From positions 1 to 13,556 of the forward strand of contig LRSK01000210.1 in assembly GCA_001563325.1 (NCBI GenBank): 13,556 nt of DNA, read 5' to 3'. Position 1 is the stretch's first letter, and the number at the start of each line of letters is the position of its first letter. The position numbers were made by a program, and so were the translations under genes. Shown in pieces: positions 1-13,556 of this stretch. This DNA comes from Candidatus Thorarchaeota archaeon SMTZ1-83 (GTDB lineage: Archaea; Asgardarchaeota; Thorarchaeia; Thorarchaeales; Thorarchaeaceae). The notes beneath the pieces are model-generated. The model did not search any database and was not told the origin of the DNA. It worked only from the letters and a program-made list of their open reading frames with translations.

Positions 1-736
1 CTTCGACCTTGTCCTCTGTTTCAAAGGTCTGAGTGAAGACATCTACCTCGAATGCAAGGTTCTCCTCAAGCCCCATCTGCCAGGTGTTGTTCAGCGATTG
101 CTTAGCCAGCTTCAGAGCAACTCCAGGTTTCAAAGCAAGTTTCTTCGCTAGCTCCATAGTTCCCTCTCTTAGGGCATCAATCGAATCGAAGACTCTGTTG
201 ACGAGTCCAATTCGATGTGCCTCTTCTGCGGTGATGTGGTCACCAGTATAGACAAGCTCCTTGGCTCTACCGAGACCGACCAGTCTAGCAAGGCGCACAG
301 TCCCGCCATACCCAGGAATGACTCCTAGGTTGATCTCTGGCTGTCCTAGCTTGGCGTTCGCAGATGCATATCTGATGTCGCAGGCCATCGCAAACTCGCA
401 GCCGCCTCCAAGTGCGAAACCATTCACTGCGGCTATGCTAGGTTTTGACATAGATTCGATGAACTTAGTGAGCTCCTGTCCGCGCTCCACACGGGGTCGT
501 ATTGTCTTCGAGTCCTTCCCCTTGAACTCAGATATATCCGCTCCCGCAGCAAACGCCTTCTCACCTGCACCAGTTAGAACTACTACTCTCACATTCGGGT
601 CGTCCTCAGCTTCCCCGAAGAATTCTCGCAGCTTCAAGACCACTGATGTGTTGAGAGCGTTGTACTTGTCAGGACGGTTGATAGTTATTGTGGCAACGCC
701 GTCTTGTGCTTCGTACAATACATCTTCATCTGACAC
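1..736 (-). CDS. Enoyl-CoA hydratase/crotonase family protein, 3' end cut by window edge
   Basis: Likely hydrates trans-2-enoyl-CoA (crotonyl-CoA type) to 3-hydroxyacyl-CoA in the cytoplasm. The 245 visible residues cover the crotonase fold. The oxyanion-hole region reads AAVNGFALGGGCEF, with Glu114 matching the first catalytic Glu of rat mitochondrial hydratase, and GQPEINLGVIPGYGG carries Glu134, the second. With both acids present, hydratase activity is more likely than isomerase-only activity. The last 15-20 residues of the family lie beyond base 1. I chose the GTG start at 736 because GGAGG sits 8 nt upstream. An in-frame ATG at 790 would add 18 unconserved residues and has no ribosome binding site. 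It is transcribed away from the orphan gene at 964 across a gap of about 230 nt. A TATA-like TTCTTTATC near 847-855 on this strand could drive it, but that is weak. The exact substrate is unknown. Confidence 0.93.
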   Translation of the reverse strand, partial: MSDEDVLYEAQDGVATITINRPDKYNALNTSVVLKLREFFGEAEDDPNVRVVVLTGAGEKAFAAGADISEFKGKDSKTIRPRVERGQELTKFIESMSKPSIAAVNGFALGGGCEFAMACDIRYASANAKLGQPEINLGVIPGYGGTVRLARLVGLGRAKELVYTGDHITAEEAHRIGLVNRVFDSIDALREGTMELAKKLALKPGVALKLAKQSLNNTWQMGLEENLAFEVDVFTQTFETEDKVE

Positions 737-909
737 TGTCTTGTCCTCCTTGGACTCGACCCGATTGGCCAATGGGTACGTAATAAGCATTCGCAACGCA
801 GAAGAGTGCAATCCTTGCCTAGATTCTAAGGAGAGAGCGGAACTGATAAAGAACCGGAAGATCAGACTGTGGCGCCCCTGAAGTTGTATCGCGTTTCTTC
901 GACCTCATA

Positions 910-918
910 TTTATTTAG
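910..918 (+). promoter_or_regulatory. TATA-like box for the 115-residue orphan
   Basis: TTTATTTAG lies in an AT-rich patch. Archaeal transcription usually starts about 25 nt past the box centre, here near 939. That leaves a leader of about 25 nt holding the GGAGG at 951-955 before the TTG start at 964. The spacing supports the box and argues against the earlier TTG at 949. Inferred from spacing only. Confidence 0.35.
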
Positions 919-963
919 CTGTTTAGTAGTCCGTTTTACATCATCGCGTTGGAGGATAGCAGA

Positions 964-1311
964 TTGGAGCAACAGGGCGGAGTCGAGATTTGGAAGAACT
1001 CGCTCGTGGCAATGAGAACGTCATTGGCTAGCTCTTATGATATGAGCACCTCAGTCGAGGAGCAGAGAAGGTTCCTCAATGCGTGGGAAGGGAAAGGCCT
1101 AGAGTACATCGTATTCTCTGACTACAGACGCAATGATGGGAAGAGAAGACTCAGTGACATATTGGAAGTAATCGACGACGCGATTGAGCGAATTGACCGT
1201 TGTGACATCAAGGCTGCATCAAAGCTGTACTTGGAAACTCTGGATGAGGTGGCCCTCTTCTCGAATTGGGCCAAGATACTAGAGAGGACTGTTGAGCGGT
1301 CCGGTTCTTAG
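964..1311 (+). CDS. Hypothetical small soluble protein (115 aa)
   Basis: I do not recognise this family. The protein has no membrane segment, signal peptide or cysteine cluster (one Cys). It looks mostly helical and charged: an N-terminal stretch with SVEEQRRFLNAWEGKG, a short IVFSDYRR segment that could be a strand, then a long acidic/basic region (DILEVIDDAIERIDRC, ASKLYLETLDEVALFSNW) resembling an alpha-helical bundle. The TTG at 964 is preferred over the in-frame TTG at 949 because GGAGG (951-955) lies 8 nt upstream of it; from 949 the ribosome site would fall inside the gene. It is a single-gene unit on the opposite strand to all its neighbours and converges on the DUF35 gene. The promoter, ribosome site and absence of frame breaks suggest it is real. 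Confidence 0.7.
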   Translation: MEQQGGVEIWKNSLVAMRTSLASSYDMSTSVEEQRRFLNAWEGKGLEYIVFSDYRRNDGKRRLSDILEVIDDAIERIDRCDIKAASKLYLETLDEVALFSNWAKILERTVERSGS

Positions 1312-1327
1312 TCAAAAAGAAAGGAGA

Positions 1328-1346
1328 AGAGGGCTTGTTGCCCTCT
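1328..1346 (-). terminator. Hairpin plus T-rich tract after the thiolase-DUF35 operon
   Basis: A 7-bp stem (AGAGGGC pairing with GCCCTCT, 5-nt loop) begins 6 nt past the DUF35 stop. On the minus strand it is followed by TCTCCTTTCTTTTT, a pyrimidine-rich run with a T5. On the plus strand there is no T-run after it, so it serves the minus-strand operon, though it also lies 16 nt beyond the converging plus-strand gene. Confidence 0.6.
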
Positions 1347-1352
1347 CGACGG

Positions 1353-1769
1353 CTACACCAGCCATCTATAAGTTATCTTCTTGTCATCCACCCTATCAAA
1401 CCCGAGCTTAAGTGACATTCCAACTTCGGGCATGCTGGTCAGATTCGTGATGTGTGCCGTGAGCCTCAAGCCCGATGGGAACTCCCCGATGGCAACTACG
1501 TAAGGAGCCTTCGAAGATAGGCTCTCTGGTGCAAAGTCCACAATCACATATGAGAACAGCTTGGCTTCGGTTTCGGTGAACTCTGCAAACTCAGTGACAC
1601 TCAGGCACTTCTGACAGTGCTGCCTAGGTGGGAGGTATTCGGCCTTGCATGAAGGGCACACGCTCTTCATGATTTTCTCCTGTTCAAGGTTTGACAGCCA
1701 TTCCTCGTACCAAGGCGTCACAGCTTTGTCAGTAGCATATCCAAGGTAGATTTCCTTCTTCTCGGTCAT
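1353..1769 (-). CDS. DUF35 zinc-ribbon/OB-fold protein, thiolase partner (138 aa)
   Basis: This is the small scaffold or CoA-binding partner of thiolase-like enzymes. After an N-terminal helix (about 17-34) comes a rubredoxin-like zinc ribbon with CPSC (Cys38, Cys41) and HCQKC (Cys52, Cys55), then the OB-fold (about 60-138; SYVIVDFAPE, PYVVAIGEF, KLGFDRVDDKKITYRW). Length and order are normal for the family. The start is ATG with GAGG 8 nt upstream, and that ATG overlaps the TGA of the thiolase gene (ATGA), so the two are very probably translationally coupled. In methanogens the DUF35 protein bridges acetoacetyl-CoA thiolase and HMG-CoA synthase. Here no HMG-CoA synthase adjoins, so a simpler thiolase-DUF35 complex is inferred. 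Confidence 0.92.
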   Translation of the reverse strand: MTEKKEIYLGYATDKAVTPWYEEWLSNLEQEKIMKSVCPSCKAEYLPPRQHCQKCLSVTEFAEFTETEAKLFSYVIVDFAPESLSSKAPYVVAIGEFPSGLRLTAHITNLTSMPEVGMSLKLGFDRVDDKKITYRWLV

Positions 1770-2935
1770 GAGAATCCCCTCTCAAAGATGAAGACATTGG
1801 TAAATTGACCACTCTGTCCGACATTGTGTGCCAAGCCATACTGGACATCCTTTATCTGGCGAGATGGATTCTCTGATTCGTTCCGCATCTGCTTGAGAAT
1901 CTCATATGTCATTGAAACTCCCGTAGCACCAAGCGGGTGACCCTTGCTCTTCAGACCACCATCACAGTTGACAGGAATGCGTCCATCATGGTAGATTTCC
2001 TTGTTCTCAACGAGCTCTCTTCCCTTACCAGGTTCTGCAAAACCAATGTCCTCGTAAGCAACCATCTCAGCTATGCTGAAGCAGTCGTGGACTTCAGCCA
2101 TGTTAATATCATCTGGCTTCAGTCCAGCCATTTCAAAAGCAGCTTTTGAGGCTCTCTTGGCTCCTGGAATAGATGTCAGACTCGAACGATCTTGAATCAT
2201 CATCTCTGAAGCACCAGCACCAATACCCCGAATCCACATCGGTCTGTCGGTAAACTCCTTCACCCGTTCTTCTGCTGCTATCACCACTGCGGCAGCACCA
2301 TCGGTAATTAGACTACAGTCATAGAGGTTCAAGGGCCTACAGATTGGAACTGAGTTGTGAGCCTCTTCAAGAGACACTTCCCTCCCTAGATGCGCTTTCG
2401 GATTCTGGGCACCATAATGATGCGACTTCACAGAGATCATCGAAAGGACTTCATGAGGCAGATTATACTCGGCCATATATCTTGAAGCCATCAGCGCATA
2501 GAAAGCAGGGAAGCTGATTCCGAATGGATATTCCCAACGCATATCGCCTGCCTGAGACATATACTCGGTCGCGGTAGCCGAAGAAACCCGGTTCATCTGC
2601 TCTACTCCCAACACAAGCATCACGTCATATAGGCCGGCAGAAACCATCCCCCAAGCTGCTCTGAGTGAAGCCGTGCCTGTGGTGCAAGCTGATTCAACTC
2701 GCATGTGCGGTTTGTCTTGTATACCAATGTAATCTGCAATAAGAGCTGAACCGGCACCCTGACCGGTGAACTGAGATGCAGCGTACGAGAGAACTGATGC
2801 ATCAATCTTGTCTTGCGTAATTCCCTCGTCATAGATGGGCTTATACGCCTCGGCACAGAGCTCCCTCATGGTAGCATCGTACCGCTTTCCGAACTTGCTA
2901 TGGCCGCCAGCAACGACAGCGACTTTTCTTCCCAA
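1766..2935 (-). CDS. Thiolase family protein, acetyl-CoA C-acetyltransferase/SCP-x type (389 aa)
   Basis: Likely cleaves 3-ketoacyl-CoA or condenses two acetyl-CoA in the cytoplasm. It has the motifs of the archaeal/SCP-x thiolase branch: N-terminal RKVAVVAGGHSKFGKR, nucleophile Cys84 in ESACTTGTAS, HDCFS with His283, GHPLGATG with His333, and a C-terminal HNVGQSGQF with His370, where many relatives have HNxGG. I start it at the TTG at 2935, which has GGAGG exactly 8 nt upstream and begins at the usual MxRKVAVV. An ATG at 2968 adds 11 atypical residues and lacks a good ribosome site. The stop overlaps the ATG of the DUF35 gene. The unit lies between two hairpin terminators (3125-3140 upstream, 1328-1346 downstream), so it is probably a two-gene transcript. 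The preferred reaction direction cannot be told from sequence. Confidence 0.94.
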   Translation of the reverse strand: MGRKVAVVAGGHSKFGKRYDATMRELCAEAYKPIYDEGITQDKIDASVLSYAASQFTGQGAGSALIADYIGIQDKPHMRVESACTTGTASLRAAWGMVSAGLYDVMLVLGVEQMNRVSSATATEYMSQAGDMRWEYPFGISFPAFYALMASRYMAEYNLPHEVLSMISVKSHHYGAQNPKAHLGREVSLEEAHNSVPICRPLNLYDCSLITDGAAAVVIAAEERVKEFTDRPMWIRGIGAGASEMMIQDRSSLTSIPGAKRASKAAFEMAGLKPDDINMAEVHDCFSIAEMVAYEDIGFAEPGKGRELVENKEIYHDGRIPVNCDGGLKSKGHPLGATGVSMTYEILKQMRNESENPSRQIKDVQYGLAHNVGQSGQFTNVFIFERGFS

Positions 2936-3124
2936 TTTCGTTTCCTCCGTGTAGAGAACCTGCCCCATATCAGGGAACTGGCTCCTTCAATCACGTATCT
3001 ATGTTCGCGATTCTTTTGCCAACGGGGTCTTAAGGTTGACGATTGGGAGGACTTCACAATCGTGTGGAGTGCTTGGAGGATTTAGGACAGACTTCCTAGC
3101 AGCCCACGATGAAAAAGAGAGAAA

Positions 3125-3140
3125 CCCCGGAAAACCGGGG
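3125..3140 (-). terminator. Hairpin plus T-rich tract after the second crotonase
   Basis: CCCCGG-AAAA-CCGGGG forms a perfect 6-bp GC stem 16 nt past the crotonase stop. On the minus strand it is followed by TTTCTCTCTTTTTC. It separates this gene from the thiolase operon, whose start is about 190 nt further on. Confidence 0.7.
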
Positions 3141-3156
3141 TCCAGGAAGTATAGTG

Positions 3157-3969
3157 CTATTCTCCGGTGAATTTACCACGACGCTTCTCAAGAAGTGCGG
3201 AAATACCCTCAGCAAGGTCCTTAGACCTGAAACACTCAACGCAGGCCTCAACCTGGTACTTGAGATTGTCATCCATCTCGTCCTCAAAGGACATGTGTGT
3301 GGCCTTCTTGGCGAGGCCGACTGCAATGGGAGCATTGCCTCCAACTTTCGCTCCGTACCAGAGAGCTTGGCTGATGAGCTCGTCTTTCGTGACAACTTTA
3401 CTCACTAGGCCCATTGCCAGCGCCTCGTCGGCAGTCACCTGAGCTCCGGTGAGAATAAGCTCCATGGCCTTGCCAAGACCGACAACTCTCGGCAGTCGAG
3501 CGCACCCTCCCCATGCTGGAATAAGCCCTAGGCTTACTTCCGGAGCGCCCAGCTTAGCCTCTTTCTCAGCAATCCTGATGTCGCAGGCTAAGGCAATCTC
3601 AAGACCTCCACCAAGCGCCAGACCGTTTACTGCGGCGATGGTGACTTTCGGTGTGGTTGCTAGTCGATCAAGGATTTGTTGGCCTTGAGCAACAAGATCA
3701 CCCACATTGTCGGGGTCACTAAGAAGTGTCTGAGCCATCTTGAGGTCAGCCCCGGTACAATAAACCTTCTCATGATTTGATGCTACAACAATGGAACGAA
3801 TATCTGGATCCTTCTCAGCCTCATCCAGAGCGTCGCTGAAGTCCTGGAGAAACTGATCGTTGATCGCATTCAGCGCGTCAAGTCTGTTGAACTTGATGAC
3901 TGCTGTGTTCTTCACAGGAGACAGAAACGAGCCCTCTTTGCTGTACAACATTGTTTCGAATTCTGGCAT
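3157..3969 (-). CDS. Enoyl-CoA hydratase/crotonase family protein (270 aa)
   Basis: A second crotonase, expected to hydrate enoyl-CoA to 3-hydroxyacyl-CoA. The fold is complete: IKFNRLDALNAI near the N-terminus, the oxyanion region AAVNGLALGGGLEI with Glu124, and GAPEVSLGLIPAWGG with Glu144, so both catalytic acids of classical hydratases are kept. The C-terminal tail FRSKDLAEGISALLEKRR is the usual trimerisation end. The first about 20 residues (ETMLYSKEGSFLSPVKN) form a slightly longer lead-in than in the first crotonase. The ATG at 3969 follows AGGTGATTGAG, with AGG 8 nt upstream; a GTG at 3978 lies inside that ribosome site and is rejected. It has its own promoter (about 4019) and terminator (3125-3140), so it looks monocistronic. 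The two crotonases are clearly diverged paralogues and may differ in chain length or stereochemical preference, which cannot be read from sequence. Confidence 0.93.
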   Translation of the reverse strand: MPEFETMLYSKEGSFLSPVKNTAVIKFNRLDALNAINDQFLQDFSDALDEAEKDPDIRSIVVASNHEKVYCTGADLKMAQTLLSDPDNVGDLVAQGQQILDRLATTPKVTIAAVNGLALGGGLEIALACDIRIAEKEAKLGAPEVSLGLIPAWGGCARLPRVVGLGKAMELILTGAQVTADEALAMGLVSKVVTKDELISQALWYGAKVGGNAPIAVGLAKKATHMSFEDEMDDNLKYQVEACVECFRSKDLAEGISALLEKRRGKFTGE

Positions 3970-4014
3970 CTCAATCACCTAAATGTGAATCTGAGCTGAG
4001 TGGGTAACGACCTA

Positions 4015-4023
4015 CTTAAAAAT
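4015..4023 (-). promoter_or_regulatory. TATA-like box for the second crotonase
   Basis: On the minus strand this reads ATTTTTAAG, a good archaeal TATA box. A start about 25 nt downstream (near 3994) gives a leader of about 25 nt carrying AGGTGAT before the ATG at 3969. It lies between the terminator of the upstream operon (4082-4100) and this gene. Confidence 0.5.
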
Positions 4024-4081
4024 CCGTTCCTGAAACACACTTCTGAGAATTAGAGATCAAGTCTGGAAGAAAACAGGGAAG

Positions 4082-4100
4082 ACAGGGCATGATGCCCTGT
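4082..4100 (-). terminator. Hairpin terminator after the 3-hydroxyacyl-CoA dehydrogenase operon
   Basis: ACAGGGCAT-G-ATGCCCTGT is a 9-bp inverted repeat with a one-base centre (a few inner pairs would open into the loop), 9 nt past the dehydrogenase stop. On the minus strand it is followed by CTTCCCTGTTTTCTTCC. It marks the end of the five-gene operon. Confidence 0.65.
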
Positions 4101-4109
4101 ACTTCTAGT

Positions 4110-5234
4110 CTATTTGAGGTACTTCGGAACGCTATAGCACTCGCCAAGTTCACTCTCGAGACTCCCGACGAACTCGCGGACCTTGTCAAGTCCGTACTGA
4201 TCAGCCATCTCAAATGGACCCATTGGCCAACTTGCACCCAGCTTCATGGCCATGTCGATGTCCTCTTTGTTGGCAATCCCATCATCGACGAGAATCATAG
4301 CCTCACGGATTGCGGGCATGTTGAGTCGTTGCACAATCCACTCAGCATCCGCACCCTTAGGTGGCTCTGTTTCAGCTGCCTCCGCTCCGTAGTCATAGAA
4401 GCCCTTCTTGGATTTCATCCCGATATCTCCAGCATCAACCAGATTCTTCAGGGTATCAGGAGGTTTGAAGCAGTCACCAATCTCCCGATAGAGTGTCGAC
4501 ATGGCGTTGTAGGCTATGTCAAGACCCACGAAGTCGCCAAGTGCAAATGGACCAGCCGGAGCCTTGCCTATGCCAACCATGGCAGTGTCTATCTCCTCCT
4601 TTGTAGCCTCTCCTCTCTCGTACATCAGGATAGACTCACGCATGACTGGCATGAGCAGACGATTGACAATGAACCCGGGGCTGTTCTTGGCAAAGACTGT
4701 GGTCTTGCCCTGCTTCTCACCTACAGCCTTAGCAACGGCGATAGTTTCATCGCTGGAATTCTCTCCGATGACGATTTCAAGGAGCTTCATAGCCGGGACA
4801 GGTGAGAAATAGTGCATGCCAATGAACTTGTCTGGTCTCTTGGTAGCACCTGCCAGTTCGTCGATGCTAAGAGAGGAGGTGTTCGTCGCCAGAATCGCGT
4901 GCGATGGTGCCGCGGCATCGATTTTGGCGAAAACTCCCTTCTTGACTTCCATGTTCTCAAAGATGGCCTCAATCACAAGGTCTGCATCTTTCACTGCATC
5001 CTCAGTGTCGACAGTGCCCTTTACCCTGCTCATGAGTCCCTCTGCTTCGGTGATTGACATCTTGCCTTTGTCAATGCCCGTTAGTACATTATTGCGAATG
5101 CTCTCGATTCCCTGGTCAACTAGCTCCTGATTGATGTCAACCATTGTGACTTCGTAGCCGTTCCAAGCTGATACATAGGCGATTCCGGAACCCATGAGCC
5201 CGGAACCGATGACAGCTATCTTCTTTACGTCCAT
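4110..5234 (-). CDS. 3-hydroxyacyl-CoA dehydrogenase, NAD-dependent, with doubled C-terminal domain (374 aa)
   Basis: Oxidises (S)-3-hydroxyacyl-CoA to 3-ketoacyl-CoA with NAD(P). The Rossmann N-domain (about 1-185) opens with VIGSGLMGSGIA. Ser120 (NTSSLSI), His141 (GMHYFSPV), Glu153 and Asn191 (SPGFIVNRL) correspond to the catalytic Ser137/His158/Glu170/Asn208 of the human enzyme at one constant offset. Two 3HCDH C-terminal domains follow: one about 186-285, and a second about 298-370 that repeats the pattern (NRLLMPVMRE...GPFALGDFVGLD against QRLNMPAIRE...GPFEMADQYGLD). Single-domain bacterial enzymes are about 280 residues. This layout matches the dehydrogenase half of FadB without its crotonase half, which fits the separate crotonase genes nearby. 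The start is ATG with GGAGG 7 nt upstream, 11 nt after the SCP2 stop, and it is the last gene of the operon. Confidence 0.96.
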   Translation of the reverse strand: MDVKKIAVIGSGLMGSGIAYVSAWNGYEVTMVDINQELVDQGIESIRNNVLTGIDKGKMSITEAEGLMSRVKGTVDTEDAVKDADLVIEAIFENMEVKKGVFAKIDAAAPSHAILATNTSSLSIDELAGATKRPDKFIGMHYFSPVPAMKLLEIVIGENSSDETIAVAKAVGEKQGKTTVFAKNSPGFIVNRLLMPVMRESILMYERGEATKEEIDTAMVGIGKAPAGPFALGDFVGLDIAYNAMSTLYREIGDCFKPPDTLKNLVDAGDIGMKSKKGFYDYGAEAAETEPPKGADAEWIVQRLNMPAIREAMILVDDGIANKEDIDMAMKLGASWPMGPFEMADQYGLDKVREFVGSLESELGECYSVPKYLK

Positions 5235-5245
5235 AGCAGAGCCTC

Positions 5246-5608
5246 CTACATCGCACCCATCAACGCAGCAAGTATAAGATTTGCGAGGGGATCGCTCTCA
5301 TGTGCGTTGCCTATGACCTCAAGACGACCGTCCTTCATTGTGTCTTTGAAAGGCACCTCTCCGGTGAAGATACCCAAGAGAGTTTCTGAAGAGGCCTTGT
5401 AGATGCAGTCAGGACTAGGGTAGACACCATCAAAGATCTTCATGTCATCCTTTGTGATCACCATGTACTGCGCCCCAGCCTCTGTGTGCACCTGAAGGAT
5501 CTTTCCATCATAAGGACCCACCCAGTCCTCAAGCAGTTTCTTGAGGTCTTCCTTCTCCTTCACCTTAGCAACAAGGAACTTGAAGAACTCATCAAGTTGT
5601 GACGACAT
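5246..5608 (-). CDS. SCP2 sterol-carrier-like domain protein (120 aa)
   Basis: A stand-alone SCP2 fold, which binds lipids or fatty acyl-CoA in a hydrophobic tunnel. An N-terminal helix (EFFKFLVAKVKEKEDLKKLL) is followed by alternating strands (GKILQVHTEAGAQYMVITKD) and the typical SCP2 core YKASSETLLGIFTGEVPF, then KDGRLEVIGN and a hydrophobic C-terminal helix (ANLILAALMG). Length is usual for the family. I use the ATG at 5608, 10 nt after GGAGG; a GTG at 5617 would sit one base from the ribosome site. It lies 5 nt after the upstream stop and 11 nt before the dehydrogenase, so it is cotranscribed with it. Acting as a carrier or buffer for acyl-CoA intermediates of this pathway is an inference from context. 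Confidence 0.88.
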   Translation of the reverse strand: MSSQLDEFFKFLVAKVKEKEDLKKLLEDWVGPYDGKILQVHTEAGAQYMVITKDDMKIFDGVYPSPDCIYKASSETLLGIFTGEVPFKDTMKDGRLEVIGNAHESDPLANLILAALMGAM

Positions 5609-5613
5609 TGTTC

Positions 5614-5886
5614 TCACTCCTCCTTTGCCATCCAGTCATCGATGGCCTCATGCAATACCAAGTCAATTGTGGCTGCCCACATGTTGCCCTTCCGCTCCTT
5701 TACCTTGTCAAGAAACTTATCGTAGCGGTCTCCGTCAATCAGAACCACAATGCGACCTTTTCGGTCATTCAAGAAGGCTTGGTGGTACATCTTCTTCGAC
5801 GTCCAGTACTCATGCTCAATGTCGCCTTCCTTGAGTCGAGGGTAAAAGGGCCACTCGCCTGTCGGATGCTTTCTGAACTTTGCCAT
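5614..5886 (-). CDS. Small protein with C-terminal ribbon-helix-helix-like segment (90 aa)
   Basis: I do not recognise a named family. The N-terminal half (about 1-45) is aromatic and charged (PTGEWPFYPRLKEGD, EYWTSKKMYHQAF). The C-terminal half (about 46-88) reads as one strand and two helices: GRIVVLIDGDRYDKFLDKVK then MWAATIDLVLHEAIDDWM, the layout of a ribbon-helix-helix DNA-binding domain. That is a secondary-structure impression, not a motif match. The ATG at 5886 is 8 nt after GGAGG and overlaps the TAA of the upstream gene by one base, so the two are coupled. It and its upstream neighbour share the RHH-like half in opposite order. It may form a heteromer with that protein, either regulating the operon or having a structural role. 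Confidence is high for the gene and low for the fold. Confidence 0.8.
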   Translation of the reverse strand: MAKFRKHPTGEWPFYPRLKEGDIEHEYWTSKKMYHQAFLNDRKGRIVVLIDGDRYDKFLDKVKERKGNMWAATIDLVLHEAIDDWMAKEE

Positions 5887-6152
5887 TATGCACTCCTCCA
5901 CTTCTTCACCAAGTCACCCGTCGCCTCCAAGAATCCTGGTCGGTATGGCCATTGAACTACATAACGGAAGCCCTTGACTCCGTCTTTCTCGCCCTTGGAC
6001 CATCTTCCCGTGTATACTCTACCGCCAACATCATTGCAGAACTCGTGGATGACTACTTCAATCACTCCTTCGATTCTCAAGCCACTCTCATCAGCAATCT
6101 CCTTTAGCTTCTCCATTGTCGGTTCATCAAAAGTTACTTCCACATCAATCAC
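5886..6152 (-). CDS. Small protein with N-terminal ribbon-helix-helix-like segment (88 aa)
   Basis: Unrecognised family. Residues 1-40 look like strand-helix-helix (IDVEVTFDEPTMEKLKEIA, then EGVIEVVIHEFCND), compatible with a ribbon-helix-helix fold. Residues 45-88 are rich in Gly and aromatics and probably beta (RVYTGRWSKGEKDG, YVVQWPYRPGFLEATGD), ending in a short basic helix. The GTG start at 6152 overlaps the nitroreductase stop as GTGA, and the stop overlaps the next ATG (TAATG), so it is sandwiched by translational coupling. A second in-frame GTG at 6143 is possible: the GGAG upstream lies only 2 nt from the first GTG but 11 nt from the second. The single Cys (in HEFCND) argues against a metal site. 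Confidence 0.75.
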   Translation of the reverse strand: MIDVEVTFDEPTMEKLKEIADESGLRIEGVIEVVIHEFCNDVGGRVYTGRWSKGEKDGVKGFRYVVQWPYRPGFLEATGDLVKKWRSA

Positions 6153-6913
6153 TTCTCCTTCCGAAATGCAATCCGTTTATACGGCAATCCCCAACGTTCA
6201 TGATACATCAGACCCTCAAGTGGCATCCTACTAGGTCCAAGTGCGCGTCCTGATATAGGCTGGCCAATACAAAAAGCACACAGCGGGGTCCATATTGGTG
6301 GAATACCAAGTCTATCTCGCACCAGCTCCGAATGGCGCGGGTCTGCGCACACCAATGCGTCATAACCACAACCATATCCTAGTTCTGTTGCAGTTAGCCA
6401 CATGTTCGTGACGGCCATCCCAGCCACGACAGACCCAAAGAGCTCATTGGGGTATAGGTAGTTCGCATCATGCCATGATTCACTTGCACAGACAACAATG
6501 ACAGTATCGCTCGATTCGGGGTAGCGGAATAGCTTACCGTCCCGCAGTCTTGCGTAGATTGCAGCTCTATAAGGATCTGAGATATAGAAGTTGCGACCAC
6601 TCGCCAGTTCAAAGGGCGACCCGCCAAATGCAGATACAGCCATCTCCTCCGCCAAGTCTGCCAAGAACTCCTTGGTGCCTTGATCGTCACGTATTACTAT
6701 GTATCGAACCATCTGCATGTTCTCAGGGCTCGGTGCATGTCGAGCCGCCTCAAGAATCAGCTCGATATGTTCATCCGGTATCTTCTCGCCAGTGAATTCA
6801 CGTATCGAACGCCTTTCACGGATGAGCTTGATTGACTGCAGTTCCTCTGTAGTCTTCGCTGCATCCTTAGCCTCACCAGCTGCTTCCGACTTATCCTCAG
6901 CATCTGTAGCCAT
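6149..6913 (-). CDS. Nitroreductase family flavoprotein (254 aa)
   Basis: Probable FMN-dependent NAD(P)H oxidoreductase. After an acidic, Ala-rich, low-complexity lead (about 1-28) comes the FMN-phosphate motif RRSIREF (34-40), then the conserved EAARHAPSPENMQ (55-67), AGMAVTNMWLTATELGYG (164-181) and LGIPPIWTP...FCIGQP near the end, all in family order. The natural substrate is not predictable; the family includes quinone, enoate and nitro reductases and flavin-modifying enzymes. The start is ATG with GAGGTGA 7 nt upstream. It is the first gene of a tight operon leading into SCP2 and the hydroxyacyl-CoA dehydrogenase, which suggests a redox role linked to acyl-CoA turnover. The C-terminal stretch after the FMN domain (PSRMPLEGLMYHERWGLPYKR) is longer than in minimal members. 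Confidence 0.9.
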   Translation of the reverse strand: MATDAEDKSEAAGEAKDAAKTTEELQSIKLIRERRSIREFTGEKIPDEHIELILEAARHAPSPENMQMVRYIVIRDDQGTKEFLADLAEEMAVSAFGGSPFELASGRNFYISDPYRAAIYARLRDGKLFRYPESSDTVIVVCASESWHDANYLYPNELFGSVVAGMAVTNMWLTATELGYGCGYDALVCADPRHSELVRDRLGIPPIWTPLCAFCIGQPISGRALGPSRMPLEGLMYHERWGLPYKRIAFRKEK

Positions 6914-6929
6914 TTGTTCACCTCATGGT

Positions 6930-6972
6930 TTGTGTTAAATGCGCACGTCGAAGACAACATGGGGCATAAATG
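6930..6972 (-). promoter_or_regulatory. Promoter region of the nitroreductase operon
   Basis: Two TATA-like elements lie upstream on the minus strand: CATTTATG (about 6964-6971) and CATTTAACA (about 6933-6941). The farther one would give a leader of about 28 nt containing GAGGTGA. The nearer one would place the transcript start at the ATG itself (leaderless), which fits poorly with a good ribosome site. I favour the farther one, weakly. Confidence 0.3.
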
Positions 6973-7200
6973 TATTCGCTTTCACTCCGAAACGACAACA
7001 CTTCTGCGATGTGGCGTGAAGTATAGAGGAGGGGTCCCAAGGAAGGAGTCAATATGCAGCACATTAGGTGGATATTGCACCGTGTCATGTCTGGGCAACA
7101 CCCTCAATACTTACACAGTATTGGCATGAACACACAAGGTGACTTATGGCAGCGATGTAGCGATATCACAGAGCACGCAATCATCTCCCGGAACCGAAGT

Positions 7201-7237
7201 GCTCTTCTTTTTCCAGAGCGGGAGCGAGAAACGCTCC
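7201..7237 (-). other. Two adjacent stem-loops after the synthetase operon
   Basis: On the minus strand GGAGCG-TTTCT-CGCTCC (6 bp, 7237-7221) is followed one base later by GCTCT-GGAAAAAGA-AGAGC (5 bp, 7219-7201). They begin 27 nt past the stop of the P-loop/DRTGG gene. Unlike the other three 3' hairpins in the window they have no T-rich tract afterwards, so they may be a transcript-end stabiliser or a weak terminator rather than a standard one. Confidence 0.35.
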
Positions 7238-7264
7238 TCCTCACTATCTGCGATGGCAGAGAAA

Positions 7265-8329
7265 CTATGGATCAAAGCCTGTAAGATCCAATGCATCTGC
7301 AACTATCTTCTGAACGATTGCCAGTTTCTCCTTGTTTTCCACAGACACTGTACCGGCTATACTGTCAACTCTCTTACCCGTGGTGTATGTGTCGTGCGGA
7401 GTCATCATGATTGGGACATTCATCTCCTTTGCCTTGGAGAGTGTTCGGATGTCAGGTCCCATGCCACCGGTCAAGATTAGCAGATTCGTATCAGTTTCAA
7501 GGGCTGCAAGGCAGATGTCCGACCTGTCGCCACTCGTTATCACCGCCTTATCCTTTGCTCTCCGGAACCACTTCAGAGCATTCTCGGGAGCCATGGCTCC
7601 TATCAAGAACCTGTCTATGAGTAGGTCCATTCTGTCTTCCCCTGTGATCATCTCTCCCTCAAGAGCACGCAGAATCTCTCTTATCGTTGGACTGAAGAGC
7701 TCTCGTCGTTGATAGATTGTACCAAGGAACTTCACTCCATTCTCCTCTAGGAATGGACTGATTCGCTCTTCGACTGCCTTCCTTAGCATTGGAGGCACCA
7801 TGCTGAGGACGACCCCAATCTCTTCGATGCCGTATTGCCTGAAGAAGTCCCTGTCCAATAGGACATCATCAATCGCAGTCACTTCTTTGAAGTTGAAGAG
7901 GCAGATTACTGAAGCGTCGAGTAACTTGGCAATTTGTGGAGTAGAGAGTCCCACGTGGAGGAGATGCCATGGAGCCTTTGTGCCCTCTACAAGAATATAG
8001 TCCTGTCCCTCGGCAACTTTGGCATAGGAACTCTTGATTCGCTGGACTAGCTCGTCGTGTCCTATTTGGATGAACTCGTCATAACTTGACTTCTTTCTGA
8101 CAATTGGACAAATACTGTCAAGGTCAACATCGAGTTGAAGAACCTCTTTCATGACTGCTGCGTCTTCATCTATATCCCCAGATTCATCACCATGGTCGAA
8201 GCTCTTCTGACCGATGGGCTTGAAATATCCGACAGAGTACCCATCTCCACGAAGCTTCGCCGCTATGGCAAGAGCGACCATTGTTTTTCCTGTCAGAGTT
8301 TCTCCGCTAATCACAATGTTCTTCGCCAA
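7265..8329 (-). CDS. P-loop (dethiobiotin synthetase-like AAA_26) plus DRTGG domain protein, phosphotransacetylase N-terminal-like (354 aa)
   Basis: This matches the non-catalytic N-terminal part of long bacterial phosphotransacetylases. A BioD-like P-loop domain (about 1-210) opens with the Walker A GETLTGKT (9-16) and includes YILVEGTKAPWHL. A DRTGG domain (about 215-330) follows, with ITSGDRSDICLAALETDT, LLILTGGMGPD and VPIMMTPHDTYTTGKRVD. There is no phosphotransacetylase catalytic domain. A regulatory, CoA-sensing or accessory role for the synthetase next door is an inference from the operon. The start is TTG at 8329 with GAGGAGAG just upstream; that site overlaps the TGA of the synthetase gene, 10 nt away, so translation is probably coupled. 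The Walker lysine is intact, suggesting nucleotide binding. Confidence 0.85.
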   Translation of the reverse strand: MAKNIVISGETLTGKTMVALAIAAKLRGDGYSVGYFKPIGQKSFDHGDESGDIDEDAAVMKEVLQLDVDLDSICPIVRKKSSYDEFIQIGHDELVQRIKSSYAKVAEGQDYILVEGTKAPWHLLHVGLSTPQIAKLLDASVICLFNFKEVTAIDDVLLDRDFFRQYGIEEIGVVLSMVPPMLRKAVEERISPFLEENGVKFLGTIYQRRELFSPTIREILRALEGEMITGEDRMDLLIDRFLIGAMAPENALKWFRRAKDKAVITSGDRSDICLAALETDTNLLILTGGMGPDIRTLSKAKEMNVPIMMTPHDTYTTGKRVDSIAGTVSVENKEKLAIVQKIVADALDLTGFDP

Positions 8330-8339
8330 TCTACTCTCC

Positions 8340-10448
8340 TCATATTGTTATCTTAACATCGACCGCAGATATCCCCTTCCCTCTCTCGTACGCAAAAGCG
8401 GGATTGATATCCAATTCTACTATTTCCTCGAAGTCCGTTACAAGCTTCGAGATTCTCAAAATCGTGTCTTCTATCGCTTCTATATCGCTGGGCTCTTCGC
8501 CTCTCACGCCCTTGAGAAGCGTGCCCATCTTGGTTTCGGTGATGAGCTCCGCCGCATCCTTTCGTGTCATCGGAGCAAGTCTAAATGATACATCCTTGAG
8601 GAAATTCACGTAGATTCCTCCAGCCCCAAACATCAAAAGAGGCCCGAACTGAATATCCTGCGAGCAACCGATTATGAGTTCCTTCCCTTTCTCTGCCATC
8701 TCCTGAACGTCTACACCGTAGATCACTGCTCTCGGCATATGTGTGCGGACATTGTCCAGAATCTCAAGAAAGGCATTCTCGACCTCCTCTTCGTCATCGA
8801 GTCCCACTTGGATTCCACCGATGTCAGTCTTGTGAATGATGTCGGGGCTTGCTATTTTGAGCACGACTGGGAAGCCTAGCTGGGCTGCGATTTCTTTAGC
8901 CTCTTGGGCGCTCGTGGCAAGTTTGATCCGAGCCACTGGAATGCCATAGGCCTCTGCCATCTCGTGTGCCTCACTGCCTAGCAATACCTGGCGGTCATCC
9001 TCACGCACGCTCTTGATGATTCTCTCCACCCTCTTCTTGTCGACTTTGAAATCAGGAGGGCTCTCTTCTCTGAGACTGTCCCTCAAGACCAGATATCGGT
9101 ACAATTCAGCAAGGGCATTGACAGCTCTGCCTGGAAAGTCAAAGACAGGTACACCTCCCTCGTTCAAAACAATCCGAGGGTAGGTCATAGCGTTGCCGCC
9201 CATGAACACGGCCAGTAGTGGTTTGCCCGGGTATTTCCTGCGTGCCTCAACGAGTATCTGCGCAGTTCTGGTTTCTTTCGTCATGGCCTGTGGAGTCAAC
9301 AACACCAGGACGGAATCAACATTCTCATCATTGAAAACAGCCTCCAGAGATACTGCGTAATCCTCCGGTTGCGCGGTTCCCAAAGCATCCACAGGATTGT
9401 AGACAGAAGCAGCAGGAGGCAGCCCCTTCCTTAGTTCCTCTATGGTTGCTTGAGAGAACTGTGCCATCTGTAATCCATTCTCTTCGCATGCGTCCGTGGT
9501 AAGAATACCGGGCCCGCCTGCGTTCGTTACTATGGCTACGCGGTTGCCTTTCGGCAGGTTGCAGTCATCAAAAACATTGGCTACATCAAACAGCTCAGCC
9601 ATGCTATCCGCTCGCATCACTCCACATTGTCTGAAAGCCACCGAGTAGGCTGTGTCACTTCCCGCAAGCGATCCTGTGTGAGACGATGCGGCGCGTGCGC
9701 CTGCAGCACTTACCCCACCTTTGACAACAAAGACGGGCTTGTTTGGTGTGACCTTTCTACATGCTTCCATAAACTTTCTTCCATTCATTACAGATTCAAT
9801 ATAGAGCAGGATGAAGGTCGTGTTGGGGTCTCTTCCAAATGCTTCAACGAAATCGGCCTCATCTAACTGGGCCTTGTTGCCCAGACTCACAAACTTGGAG
9901 AATCCTATCTTCTCCATGAGGCTCCAATCAAGAATCCCAGTCATGAGGGCTCCTGATTGTGAAGCGAATGCGATAGTCCCCTTCTCAGGTGTGCCCGCAG
10001 CAAACGAGGCATTGTAGGGGGAATGAGTGTTGATTATTCCTAGACAGTTCGGTCCAAGGACTATCATCCCATGCTTCTCTGCAATCGCAATGAGCTCCTT
10101 TTCGGCTTCCTGCCCTTCATGGCCCATCTCCTTGAAACCAGCTGTAATCACTACAAGCGCCTTGACTCCCTTGTTGCCGCACTCCTCAACAACAGACAGG
10201 ACATACTTGGCAGGTATGACGATTACAGCGACGTCTAGACGACCGCCAATCTCGGAGACTCTGCGATAGGTTTTCAACCCGAGGATCTCTCCTCCGCGAG
10301 GATTCACCGGGTAGATTCTTCCCTCGAACTCGCTCTCGAGGAGGTTCTTGACTACATCGTTTCCAAGCTTGCCCTCCGTGGCAGAAGCTCCGACAACTGC
10401 TATGGACCGGGGATTGAACAATACGTCAATAGCTTTCTGTCTGTCCAA
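8340..10448 (-). CDS. ADP-forming acyl-CoA/acetyl-CoA synthetase, fused alpha-beta chains (702 aa)
   Basis: Interconverts acyl-CoA + ADP + Pi with acid + ATP + CoA, the substrate-level ATP-forming step of many fermenting archaea. Domain order: CoA-binding (about 1-130; FNPRSIAVVGASATEGKLGN), a succinyl-CoA-synthetase-like domain (about 150-290; IAFASQSGALMTG) with the phosphohistidine His257 in SSHTGSLAGSD, a third alpha domain (about 300-455; TNAGGPGILTTDACEENGL), then an ATP-grasp beta domain (about 480-702; EAYGIPVARIKL, FPVVLKIASPDIIHKTDIGG with the second conserved His539, LLMFGAGGIYVN, ELDINP). Length fits the single-chain alpha-beta form. The start is TTG at 10448; no ATG exists between it and the upstream in-frame stop, and there is no clear ribosome site. 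Acetate or a longer acid could be the substrate; the neighbouring acyl-CoA genes make either plausible. Confidence 0.95.
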   Translation of the reverse strand: MDRQKAIDVLFNPRSIAVVGASATEGKLGNDVVKNLLESEFEGRIYPVNPRGGEILGLKTYRRVSEIGGRLDVAVIVIPAKYVLSVVEECGNKGVKALVVITAGFKEMGHEGQEAEKELIAIAEKHGMIVLGPNCLGIINTHSPYNASFAAGTPEKGTIAFASQSGALMTGILDWSLMEKIGFSKFVSLGNKAQLDEADFVEAFGRDPNTTFILLYIESVMNGRKFMEACRKVTPNKPVFVVKGGVSAAGARAASSHTGSLAGSDTAYSVAFRQCGVMRADSMAELFDVANVFDDCNLPKGNRVAIVTNAGGPGILTTDACEENGLQMAQFSQATIEELRKGLPPAASVYNPVDALGTAQPEDYAVSLEAVFNDENVDSVLVLLTPQAMTKETRTAQILVEARRKYPGKPLLAVFMGGNAMTYPRIVLNEGGVPVFDFPGRAVNALAELYRYLVLRDSLREESPPDFKVDKKRVERIIKSVREDDRQVLLGSEAHEMAEAYGIPVARIKLATSAQEAKEIAAQLGFPVVLKIASPDIIHKTDIGGIQVGLDDEEEVENAFLEILDNVRTHMPRAVIYGVDVQEMAEKGKELIIGCSQDIQFGPLLMFGAGGIYVNFLKDVSFRLAPMTRKDAAELITETKMGTLLKGVRGEEPSDIEAIEDTILRISKLVTDFEEIVELDINPAFAYERGKGISAVDVKITI

Positions 10449-10836: not shown

Positions 10837-10910
10837 TCACATATGGAGCCGCTGAGGATATCAACCTTCTCTTCTTCCTTTCAAACTGAATACCGACCGA
10901 GTAATACACG

Positions 10911-10921
10911 GAATCATATTC
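10911..10921. promoter_or_regulatory. Possible operator in the divergent promoter region
   Basis: GAATCATATTC is a short inverted repeat (GAAT-CAT-ATTC) midway in the 120-nt gap between the membrane-protein gene and the ribbon-helix-helix genes. Such regulators often bind short inverted repeats in their own promoters. At this length it could easily be chance. Confidence 0.2.
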
Positions 10922-10956
10922 GGGTATGACGTGGGCTTCACTCAGGTGATACTCAC

Positions 10957-11097
10957 ATGAAGCTCGTTACTCTTCACATCCCTGAAACATACGTCGATGG
11001 GCTAGAGAAACTCGTCGAGAGCAATCTCTATCCAAATCGCTCTGAAGCAATCAGAATTGCAATCAGAGACCTTCTGAAGCGCGAACTGTGGGGTTAA
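10957..11097 (+). CDS. Ribbon-helix-helix (CopG/Arc-type) DNA-binding protein, first copy (46 aa)
   Basis: A minimal ribbon-helix-helix protein, expected to dimerise and bind DNA with the paired strand. Residues 2-9 (KLVTLHIP) form the strand, 10-22 helix 1 (ETYVDGLEKLVES), the turn is LYPNRSEAIR with the helix 2 N-cap Ser typical of the family, and 29-43 form helix 2 (SEAIRIAIRDLLKRE). The whole protein is just this domain. The ATG follows AGGTGAT by a normal distance. It lies 6 nt before a second, closely similar gene and is divergent from the membrane-protein gene. Autoregulation from the 120-nt divergent region is typical of such genes but unproven here. Confidence 0.92.
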   Translation: MKLVTLHIPETYVDGLEKLVESNLYPNRSEAIRIAIRDLLKRELWG

Positions 11098-11211
11098 CAG
11101 TTGTTGAAGCTGATTACACTACACGTACCACTTGAATACGTCAAAGGGATAGAGAAGCTCGTTGAGATGGATCTCTATCCAAATCGCTCTGAAGCAATCA
11201 GAATTGCAATC
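11024..11211 (+). repeat. 41-nt exact direct repeat within the two ribbon-helix-helix genes
   Basis: Bases 11024-11064 and 11171-11211 are identical over 41 nt, spaced 147 nt apart (exactly one gene unit). They encode the same residues (end of helix 1 through the first half of helix 2). Identity includes third codon positions, while flanking parts of the two genes differ at many positions. Confidence 0.95.
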
Positions 11212-11244
11212 CGAGATATGCTCAAGAAGGAACTGTGGAAATAG
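11104..11244 (+). CDS. Ribbon-helix-helix (CopG/Arc-type) DNA-binding protein, second copy (46 aa)
   Basis: Tandem paralogue of the preceding gene with the same layout: strand KLITLHVP, helix 1 LEYVKGIEKLVEM, turn LYPNRSEAIR, helix 2 ending RDMLKKELW. The central and C-terminal parts are nearly identical to copy 1; differences cluster in residues 4-23 (strand edge and helix 1), where dimer and DNA contacts are made. The start is TTG: 11104 aligns residue for residue with copy 1, while the adjacent TTG at 11101 is 7 nt from a GGGG ribosome site and would add one Leu. Both copies have intact frames, so neither is a pseudogene. A heterodimer or division of targets is possible. Translation is probably coupled to copy 1. 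Confidence 0.88.
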   Translation: MKLITLHVPLEYVKGIEKLVEMDLYPNRSEAIRIAIRDMLKKELWK

Positions 11245-11567: not shown

Positions 11568-12548
11568 ATGGGACTAGACTCCTCGGTTGTGGAAAGGACC
11601 TCTGGCATAGGCAGTCGCATAGTCAGGGGTTGTCCTTGCCTGAAGGAGTTTGGAAGAGAGAAGGTTTGCCTGAACAACGATGACGTTATGCCAATAACAA
11701 CGATCACAATAGACCCAGTCTTCTTCGGTAATGCCACCTCAATAGAAGACTTGACTGAATTGAGGAGCAATAGCGAGAGTATGTGCTACTGTCTAGTGTT
11801 CCTCGACAACGATAAGGAACATACTTACTGTGTCAGCCAAGGTCAGTTAGTGAAGATTAACGGACGTCCAGTGAAGGCGTCGGAGATTCAGGCAGCACTT
11901 CAGTTCGTTAGTGCTTCAGAGCAGGCCGGCGACGGAGTGATCTGCTCTTCTTGTCTCTACAAGTATCTGATCACGCTCGGAGACACCTTTGAGGAGCTCT
12001 TGACAGACGACGAAAGAGCAGAGCTCATCTCCTCGTATCTAAAGAGAGTGACAGCGCAAATGGCTGCCGACCTTATTGGTGCTGCCGAGCACTCCGATGG
12101 TCAAGATTCGGAGATCTTGGATGACCTCATCAGCGCACGAATCAAGGAGCTCTTGGACCTCAGAAGCGAATGGACAGGAGTGATTCACGACTTGAGGTCG
12201 AATGGGGCTGAGAGTCGGATTGTGTCCTTGGTCGAAAGGAATAGGCTCCTGACCAGACTCGAGGGAGTGTTCCTCTTTCAGGTGTCAACACTAAGGGAAT
12301 CCCAAGACGCTCAGATTTCACTTGGGTTGCTCAGATTCATGATTGACGTTGCCGAGAGGGTAGTCCGAATCGTTGAGGACATAAGAGAAATGACGCGTGA
12401 TCTCCAAGAAACTGGCCAACTTCCGAACGAAATAGGAACGCTCCTTCAGAAACATAGTGTTAGTCGAAGTAAGAACGTACAATGGTTCAAGAATTTGGTT
12501 AGAATGCTCAACCAGATTGAAACGAGAACCTCACAAAAATCCCTATAA
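11568..12548 (+). CDS. Cysteine-rich domain plus helical C-terminal protein, first paralogue (326 aa)
   Basis: I do not recognise the family. The N-terminal domain (about 17-135) holds eight cysteines: 22 and 24 (RGCPC), 34, 73 and 75 (MCYC), 88 (YCVSQGQ), 126 and 129 (ICSSCLYKYL). The CxC...C and CxxC spacings suggest zinc or an iron-sulphur cluster; the strands between (ITTITIDPVFF, CLVFLDND, QLVKINGRPV) suggest a beta-rich fold. From about 136 the protein is helical and heptad-like (RIKELLDLRSEWTGVIHDLR, RLLTRLEGVFLFQVSTLRES, FMIDVAERVVRIVEDIREMT), probably a coiled-coil or bundle. There is no signal peptide or membrane segment, so it is cytoplasmic. The ATG follows GGAG by 8 nt. A homologue follows 63 nt later. 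Function unknown; metal- or redox-dependent assembly or signalling would fit the architecture. Confidence 0.88.
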   Translation: MGLDSSVVERTSGIGSRIVRGCPCLKEFGREKVCLNNDDVMPITTITIDPVFFGNATSIEDLTELRSNSESMCYCLVFLDNDKEHTYCVSQGQLVKINGRPVKASEIQAALQFVSASEQAGDGVICSSCLYKYLITLGDTFEELLTDDERAELISSYLKRVTAQMAADLIGAAEHSDGQDSEILDDLISARIKELLDLRSEWTGVIHDLRSNGAESRIVSLVERNRLLTRLEGVFLFQVSTLRESQDAQISLGLLRFMIDVAERVVRIVEDIREMTRDLQETGQLPNEIGTLLQKHSVSRSKNVQWFKNLVRMLNQIETRTSQKSL

Positions 12549-12626
12549 CACAAGGTGTGCAACCGTAGTGATAGACGTGAGATGGGAATTCGTGGATGAA
12601 GCGCCGTTAATATGGAGGATTCCTAC

Positions 12627-13556
12627 TTGACACTGGGACAGCAAGAATTTGGGCAGGGCAGTATCAGGCTTATTAGAGGGTGCCCCTGCTACAAAGTCTT
12701 CGGCGACGAGAAACTCTGTGTCAATGATGATAGGGTACTGGAGATTGAAGCAATCGAAATAGACCCTCAGCTCTTCTCCTTTCATACCGATAGGGAGAGT
12801 ATGAGGCAGGAACAGGCGGTGGAGGACAACGTCTGTTATACGTCGGTATTCATCAACTATCCTGATAATAGAGTGTTCTGCATCAGTCAGGGGTGGGTTC
12901 TTCGAATTCATGGCCGCGATGTACCGGGTGACGACCTAGAAGACGCACTGCAATTCCTCTCCACGAAGGATCTCACCTCAAGCACTGAGATATGCAGCGA
13001 GTGTCTCTACAAGTTCCTCCTGACTCTAAGCGACAAGTTCGCGGACACAATGACAAAGAAGGAGAAGACTGAAGAGGTAAAACGATACGTAGACAAGTTC
13101 TCGCTCATGATTGCTGTAAAACTCAGTGAAATGGATGAGATGATGGACGCAATCGGCACTGAGGACGATATTGAGGACGGTATAGATCACTTTGCCTTCC
13201 TGAGAGCCTATCTTGTTCAACTCCTGGATCAGCAGCAGACATGGAGCGGACTGAGAGCGAAATTCTCCGACAGTGAAGAGGAATGGCTTCGGGAAATCGT
13301 CGGAATGAGGGAGCGTCTGGCAAGATTAGAGTATCAGTTCTATAGTCAGACTCTGCAAATCAGAGACATCAATGATTTCAACATGATTATCAAGATGCTT
13401 CAGTATATTCTCAAGACATCAGACGACATCCTGCGCCTGAACGAAGACATTCACGAGAGGATACGTTCCAAGAGCTTTAGGGACCATGCCGCAAAGGATG
13501 CACGCCTTGACCGCCTTGCCATGTATGCTGAGAAGAGCAGGACAGTGGAGCACAAT
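12627..13556 (+). CDS. Cysteine-rich domain plus helical C-terminal protein, second paralogue, cut by window edge
   Basis: Tandem homologue of the preceding gene; 310 residues are visible and the frame is open to the last base. Numbered from the TTG start, Cys19, 21, 31, 70, 85, 123 and 126 match seven of the eight cysteines of the first paralogue at a constant offset of three, with the same local motifs (RGCPC, VFCISQGW, ICSECLYKFL). The helical half also aligns: LLDQQQTWSGL against LLDLRSEWTGV, RLARLEYQF against LLTRLEGVF, LNEDIHE against VEDIRE. The rest has diverged widely, so the duplication is old. I chose the TTG at 12627 because GGAGG lies 8 nt upstream; an ATG at 12612, just before that site, would add five residues and is the alternative. 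Function unknown. Confidence 0.88.
   Translation, partial: MTLGQQEFGQGSIRLIRGCPCYKVFGDEKLCVNDDRVLEIEAIEIDPQLFSFHTDRESMRQEQAVEDNVCYTSVFINYPDNRVFCISQGWVLRIHGRDVPGDDLEDALQFLSTKDLTSSTEICSECLYKFLLTLSDKFADTMTKKEKTEEVKRYVDKFSLMIAVKLSEMDEMMDAIGTEDDIEDGIDHFAFLRAYLVQLLDQQQTWSGLRAKFSDSEEEWLREIVGMRERLARLEYQFYSQTLQIRDINDFNMIIKMLQYILKTSDDILRLNEDIHERIRSKSFRDHAAKDARLDRLAMYAEKSRTVEHN

Follow-up and report, generated by a model that had tools for sequence, protein, structure and literature searches.

The two tandem cysteine-rich genes that close the window (the whole stretch of 13,556 nucleotides analysed here, from Candidatus Thorarchaeota archaeon SMTZ1-83) are best read as the 3' part of a Thorarchaeota cassette comprising an operator-like element, a CdrS-type ribbon-helix-helix (RHH) regulator and the two genes themselves, here termed A and B. 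The RHH gene, A and B travel together between genomes, and some of the genomes have the element in front of their paralogous cdrS-ftsZ genes as well; the RHH-A-B cassette is almost certainly real. The tandem genes lie where a first-pass annotation, made from the sequence alone, had placed them, A being complete and B running past the window end. That annotation overlooked the upstream RHH genes, the operator-like element, the fusions of the cysteine-rich domain to GTPases and the dispensability of one of its cysteines. The features are as follows.

10899..10929, plus strand: operator-like element, GAGTAATACAC then TCATA-N6-TATGA, 27 bp before RHH1; aligned in the window and in 15/15 Thorarchaeota loci
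10957..11097, plus strand: RHH1, 46-aa ribbon-helix-helix protein, CdrS-like (Pfam RHH_1, E 1.3e-8; NCBIfam CdrS, E 7e-14, below cut-off)
11104..11244, plus strand: RHH2, 46-aa RHH protein with TTG start, tandem duplicate of RHH1 (Pfam RHH_1, E 1.2e-7)
11568..12548, plus strand: gene A, complete open reading frame of 326 aa, six-Cys domain plus helical bundle; 44 homologues found
11616..11972, plus strand: six-Cys domain of A, residues 17-135, from cysteine alignments and the AlphaFold2 model of the corresponding part of B (mean pLDDT 87.5)
11631, 11667, 11784, 11829, 11943 and 11952, plus strand: starts of the conserved Cys codons of A; variable Cys at 11637
12006..12542, plus strand: helical bundle of A, residues 147-325, from AlphaFold2, confident over residues 181-300
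12612..13556, plus strand: gene B, open at the window end; ATG at 12612, likely true start TTG at 12627
12614..12618, plus strand: GGAGG, read from the sequence as the probable ribosome-binding site of gene B (8 nt ahead of TTG 12627)
12654..13016, plus strand: six-Cys domain of B, from cysteine alignments and AlphaFold2
12681, 12717, 12834, 12879, 12993 and 13002, plus strand: starts of the conserved Cys codons of B; variable Cys at 12687

Alignment identifies A and B as diverged copies of one protein, i.e. paralogues of 326 residues each, their similarity (33% identity and 56% positives over 273 residues, E 8e-52) being far beyond chance. A full-length copy of B (P0045, 326 aa) is 100% identical across the part of B in the window, and B probably starts at TTG 12627 behind the GGAGG, as in P0047, and not at ATG 12612. 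The cysteines fall at residues 22, 24, 34, 73, 88, 126 and 129 of A and at 24, 26, 36, 75, 90, 128 and 131 of B (numbered from the ATG), a comparison which bears out the claim that seven cysteines are identically spaced in the two proteins; A also has an eighth, C75, found in 8 of the 44 matches to A. Protein searches gave 44 matches with A and 226 with B, the best 120 of the latter being used, and organism names among the listed matches are nearly all Thorarchaeota or other Asgard archaea, such that the anticipated lineage restriction is apparent. Mean identity is 74% within the B set, 53% within the A set and 28% between them, and 69 columns that are fixed in B are lost in A; judged by these columns, B is the constrained copy, with ancestral constraints kept, and A has diverged. 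In P0045 numbering, His 281 and His 314 are fixed in 120/120, and His 100 in 119/120, of the best 120 of the 226 matches to B; the A set has mostly Asn and Arg at the B-type His 100 and His 281 positions. The predicted helical tail is supported by an AlphaFold2 model of A (30-row alignment), which has helices over residues 147-325, with block-mean pLDDT values of 81-94 over 181-300, 59-75 before 181 and 48-75 after 300, and which left the N-terminal domain unresolved. A and B could form a heteromer, to which we would give about an even chance.

In 164 proteins (the 44 matches to A and the best 120 of the 226 to B), six of the seven cysteines show no variation wherever a row covers them; 4 of the 44 matches to A are gapped at Cys 22 and 24. 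The seventh, the second Cys of the CPC motif (residue 24 of A), is Cys in 40/40 covered rows of the A set; among the best 120 of the 226 matches to B it is Cys in 106, Val in 13 and Thr in one. In an alignment of the wider family (112 of 113 domain-bearing open reading frames from the fetched loci), the six are present in 111/111 rows (four columns) or 108/108 (two columns), and the seventh in 63/111. The earlier proposal of cysteine conservation is thus upheld for six positions, which are near-universal, and fails for the second Cys of CPC, which is dispensable. Five rows lack columns: L067, L091 and L092 are cut or late-starting, and L089 and L090 (both G218) are real exceptions, near-identical reading frames that keep the first four of the six cysteines and have no CxxC, and these count against our preferred reading. 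The two G218 frames lie at contig starts and run on into unrelated sequence. Ascertainment bias in the cysteine invariance is possible; a profile of A2 with all cysteines masked recovered 109 of the 113 frames found by A1 or A2, and nothing new, in a scan of the already fetched loci.

The near-invariant cysteines are consistent with the metal site that had been supposed from their conservation. The domain likely holds a metal, which would most likely be zinc, and the most likely role of the six conserved cysteines is to hold it as a structural metal. The domain might instead be a purely structural fold whose cysteines pair as disulphides or are without a ligand, as three Cys pairs would permit; however, fusions place the domain on one chain with presumably cytosolic GTPases, and the CP-x-C knuckle and the CxxC at the start of a helix are, by inspection, typical of metal sites, so that this explanation is very unlikely. 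AlphaFold2 analysis of the B domain (101-row alignment with the B domain at its head; mean pLDDT 87.5, pTM 0.81) gives beta hairpins, then the CxxC at the start of a helix, i.e. a beta-rich and apparently Asgard-specific domain. It gave no clear match among solved structures in the PDB, and a PDB sequence search gave no convincing relative. Profile searches agree with the first-pass annotation that the N-terminal domain is unrecognised: neither A (best 16.4 vs 26.3) nor B (15.7 vs 70 and 13.5 vs 27) has a Pfam match above cut-off, and no NCBIfam family is above cut-off for either protein. The motif of the SWIM zinc finger is CxCxnCxH, in which the His is invariant. A and B resemble it in their CxC...C start but, as had been remarked, not in the His: the two families have no His column in common, and the nearest candidate, H100 of B, is Asn in 42 of the 44 matches to A. 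With no Pfam match either, the assignment as a SWIM zinc finger was rejected at the motif level. No description of the six-Cys domain was found in the literature searched, which covers the work on Asgard Arf proteins in part; both it and its CdrS-like cassette seem to be new.

The domain extends well beyond A and B. Of 227 genomes from the phylum, 89 contain it according to a profile of 13 diverse members (E 0.01), two of them being weak cases (G056, in pieces, and G040, at E 0.003 with stops). Sorted by length and content, 111 reading frames (one short row dropped) fall into 44 of the Thorarchaeota type, 30 that are short or fragmentary, two groups fused to Arf (8 and 7), and smaller groups with a different long C-terminal part (7), a hydrophobic membrane-like fusion (6) or a weakly Trx-like fusion (5), along with a further group of 4. 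The Arf fusions comprise 15 loci in nine genomes (G057-G065), and the 4 fused proteins scanned of these 15 loci match PF00025 (Arf) at 127-156 bits vs a cut-off of 22.3. A single fusion followed by duplication fits the data (AU p 0.756, from quick trees with thinned rows); the Arf fusion may be a single event, which counts against the preferred reading. The membrane-like fusions are so called by inspection, none of the three scanned having a Pfam match above cut-off, and the weakly Trx-like part that follows the domain in five loci has a Pfam E value of 1.3e-4, below cut-off, in the one protein scanned.

Neighbouring genes add to this picture. In the group of 4, the six-Cys gene has a V4R-domain gene 23-67 bp ahead of it, in the same orientation, in 4/4 loci; Pfam finds Trx and two V4R domains in the one neighbour scanned, and three of the neighbours show Trx (the last is truncated by a contig end). 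At these loci (L109, L110, L111 and L116) the six-Cys gene and the V4R gene (Trx-V4R-V4R in the single case scanned) apparently form an operon. A 1030-aa protein adjoins, and the clade with the Trx-like fusion has two genes, of about 620 and about 490 aa, as its relatives. One group of short proteins has a protein of 1260-1484 aa (shorter where cut) upstream in 10/10 loci, with a TrmB HTH in the one scanned. The stand-alone six-Cys genes of L037-L046 and L112 have a very long gene (up to 1484 aa) ahead of them, which in most cases is itself preceded by another long gene, and a weakly similar long protein occurs about ten genes from A-B in Thorarchaeota. C-type genes are a third Thorarchaeota paralogue, and a Rab-like gene is found 10 bp ahead of them in L071 and 0.56 kb ahead in L072; such a neighbour speaks for the preferred reading where it is present, but it is present in only 2/12 C-type loci, a minority that weighs against that reading. 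A relative in L075 has an Arf-like gene in a divergent gene pair beside the domain gene. Arf loci of G061 and G059 (L145, L151, L153 and L154) contain other Arf-like GTPases with a different C-terminal tail of ~130 aa, longin-like by inspection.

In general, the domain could be a GTPase-linked adaptor, a proposal for which we see the balance as even. A stricter role for A and B, as GEFs or GAPs for Arf or Rab-like proteins, would be in line with the Arf fusion in nine genomes, the adjacent Rab-like gene in two C-type loci and the Arf-like gene beside the L075 relative. Such a role is nevertheless most improbable, given that, with the seeds used, most fetched A, B and C loci have no GTPase neighbour and that a GTPase fused to its own GAP or GEF is, to our knowledge, unusual.

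The genes directly upstream of A link the pair to a regulator. RHH1 and RHH2 form a 134-nt direct repeat (79% identical), and both belong to RHH_1 of the CopG family, scoring 34.9 and 31.9 vs a Pfam gathering threshold of 20.5. CdrS is the top NCBIfam match of RHH1, followed by NikR and aCcr1, at 51.5 bits vs the NF058555 cut-off of 100; RHH1 is accordingly not the haloarchaeal CdrS equivalog, and the ftsZ-linked RHH protein of Thorarchaeota scores 46.3 bits against the same model. Nor is RHH1 a member of a CdrS-type locus, directly before ftsZ: it precedes A/B-like genes, and its paralogue precedes ftsZ. In L157, an RHH gene (4005-4190) directly precedes FtsZ (4187-5455; TIGR00065, 423 bits), the other 17 cdrS-ftsZ loci used having a gene 76-87% identical to this FtsZ, and in G187 the RHH paralogue before ftsZ is identical at 31 of 46 residues.

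RHH1 is found before A in 15/15 tandem loci, at 87-98% identity. A/B-like genes occur in 42 genomes (positions chosen manually, excluding C-type and short relatives), and 41 of these have an RHH gene of at least 83% identity 102-387 bp upstream on the same strand, the exception being G192, where the A gene itself is only partly matched. Recurrence as adjacent pairs, looked for in the first-pass annotation as support, is seen in 38 of the 42, all on the same strand (not in G002, G186, G204 and G209), and four genomes (G001, G002, G189 and G215) have two RHH copies. The A and B matches of G002 (CP070658.1; L002 and L076) are 121 kb apart and each partial; the stretch near B reads N, and rearrangement or masking are both possible. 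The RHH family occurs in 221/227 genomes, and of the other domain loci 2/84 have such an RHH gene, both being A-type fragments, which is a further point against the preferred reading. Regarding the wider neighbourhood, the minus strand of positions 1-10448 carries an acyl-CoA-type block with enoyl-CoA hydratases, a thiolase with its partner, a 3-hydroxyacyl-CoA dehydrogenase, a nitroreductase-like protein and a large acyl-CoA synthetase-like protein (all names by inspection); flanking genes recur in other Thorarchaeota loci, i.e. clusters c1-c3 in 16, c5-c7 in 14 and c12 in 11.

The RHH linkage could also indicate that A and B serve the RHH protein as its sensor arm: the cysteine site would read metal or redox state, and A and B would relay it to the small RHH protein, which is too short for a sensor of its own. 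The linkage in 41/42 genomes and the six conserved cysteines fit this proposal, as do the weakly Trx-like part after the domain in five loci and the Trx-V4R neighbour gene in another clade. However, the domain mostly occurs without such an RHH gene nearby, and we know of no A/B-like partner for CdrS of Haloferax. That CdrS is likewise a small RHH protein (PMC8406309), and we consider the sensor arm rather unlikely.

For the operator-like element, the 160 bp before the RHH genes were aligned (window and 15 loci), and they show one conserved stretch, GAGTATTACTCACA..CATATT...GTATGAC, with two dyads. The scoring pattern, GTAWTACTCACANNCATAT, was drawn from the same RHH-A-B loci that it scores, of which 13/15 have 0-2 mismatches; the window has 3, and shuffles reach 3 or fewer in 0.25% of cases. 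The element is poor in the other two, L067 (4 mismatches) and L058 (5), and these count against the preferred reading. Within the window, 10899-10929 is the only match at 3 or fewer mismatches, with none in 200 shuffles. At no more than one mismatch, 47 genomes of the Thorarchaeota order contain 34 sites in 30 genomes (the reversed pattern gives 2): 28 before RHH-A-B, 5 before cdrS-ftsZ (G187, G191, G200, G201 and G203) and one elsewhere, inside a 768-aa reading frame of G186. Rab-like-looking genes occur near another RHH match and near this one stray element (L158 and L195).

Fourteen Thorarchaeota cdrS-ftsZ loci were fetched only as RHH matches, not by motif, and 7/14 have the element at 3 or fewer mismatches (shuffles, 0.14%); at the same threshold it is absent from all 12 loci of other RHH genes that were scored, including 8 from the Thorarchaeota order. 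Two scored cdrS-ftsZ loci from outside Thorarchaeota match the pattern no more closely than shuffles do (6 and 7 mismatches), which again counts against the preferred reading, and the element was not seen in the few loci scored outside Thorarchaeota. The scored cdrS-ftsZ and RHH loci are not independent trials because they are related. The counts indicate that the element is shared within Thorarchaeota, strong in some genomes and eroded in others. Very probably RHH-A-B and cdrS-ftsZ share it, and it is a predicted operator that the RHH protein likely binds. The RHH protein might, alternatively, autoregulate its own operon only, the shared element reflecting RHH paralogy and A and B being unrelated to division. 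In favour of this, half of the unselected Thorarchaeota cdrS-ftsZ loci are without a good site, and the A-B neighbourhood consists of fatty-acid or acyl-CoA-like genes on the other strand (by inspection); yet at one mismatch or fewer the element lies before cdrS-ftsZ in five genomes and, outside RHH-A-B, in one other place in 47 genomes, and we regard autoregulation alone as unlikely.

Under the preferred reading, RHH1 is a candidate CdrS-type regulator of division genes, the element being shared with cdrS-ftsZ; the RHH protein would bind the element and coordinate the expression of A-B with FtsZ. Each of the two proteins would carry a six-Cys metal domain (zinc first) on a helical bundle. The domain would act as an adaptor, docking to small-GTPase or membrane machinery or controlling it, and in Thorarchaeota A and B would do this job together, timed to division or the cell cycle. 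An adaptor job seems the most likely one because the domain is joined elsewhere to Arf GTPases, membrane-like segments and a weakly Trx-like part, and has V4R neighbours in one clade. A role for A and B in division or membrane remodelling may be given slightly less than an even chance. The whole synthesis, in which the products of a CdrS-type regulon, A and B, are co-expressed with the division machinery and act as metal-binding adaptors linked to GTPase or membrane systems, is tentative and falls below even probability. Against it, paralogous RHH proteins may share DNA sites without a common function, A and B in Thorarchaeota have no known direct link to FtsZ or any GTPase, and a good site is missing from 7/14 unselected Thorarchaeota cdrS-ftsZ loci.

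The closest known systems, as described in the sources cited, share some of these features. In haloarchaea CdrS controls ftsZ2 and division, and cdrS-ftsZ2 is conserved across archaea (Darnell 2020, PMC7439475; Liao 2021, PMC8406309). As there, a short CopG/Arc/MetJ-type RHH gene lies directly before its partner gene, and the same genomes hold an RHH paralogue before ftsZ, in part with the same element; unlike there, A-B stand behind the RHH gene instead of ftsZ, the gap is about 100-390 bp and the RHH gene is sometimes duplicated. The small RHH cell-cycle regulator aCcr1 of Sulfolobales, to which RHH1 gives a weak NCBIfam match, differs both by score (21 vs a cut-off of 60) and by target, which is cdvA (PMC12796447, PMC7617429). 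Lokiarchaeum has longin domains fused to Arf-like GTPases (PMC4917890), likewise a second domain on an Arf-like GTPase, although the domain added here is the six-Cys domain and A and B have no GTPase domain. The TRAPPC3/V4R protein of Thorarchaeota binds zinc through four Cys (PMC10933270); this too is an Asgard cysteine protein, and a V4R gene lies beside the six-Cys domain in four loci, whereas A and B have no V4R match. With longin-Arf fusions and a zinc-binding V4R protein known, the logic of the domain has precedents.

Asgard archaea stand closer to eukaryotes than any other known group, and both their mode of division and their use of many small GTPases are open questions. On a broader and more doubtful view, the six-Cys metal domain would be an Asgard-specific plug-in of GTPase, membrane and redox proteins, and the duplicated Thorarchaeota pair a new FtsZ-linked component of division or membrane remodelling, under the control of a CdrS paralogue that acts through one operator shared with cdrS-ftsZ. 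The cassette is conserved and has a predicted operator, ftsZ is its predicted regulon partner, and other lineages of the phylum have the domain joined to Arf GTPases, such that A and B are testable candidates for a new cell-biology module.
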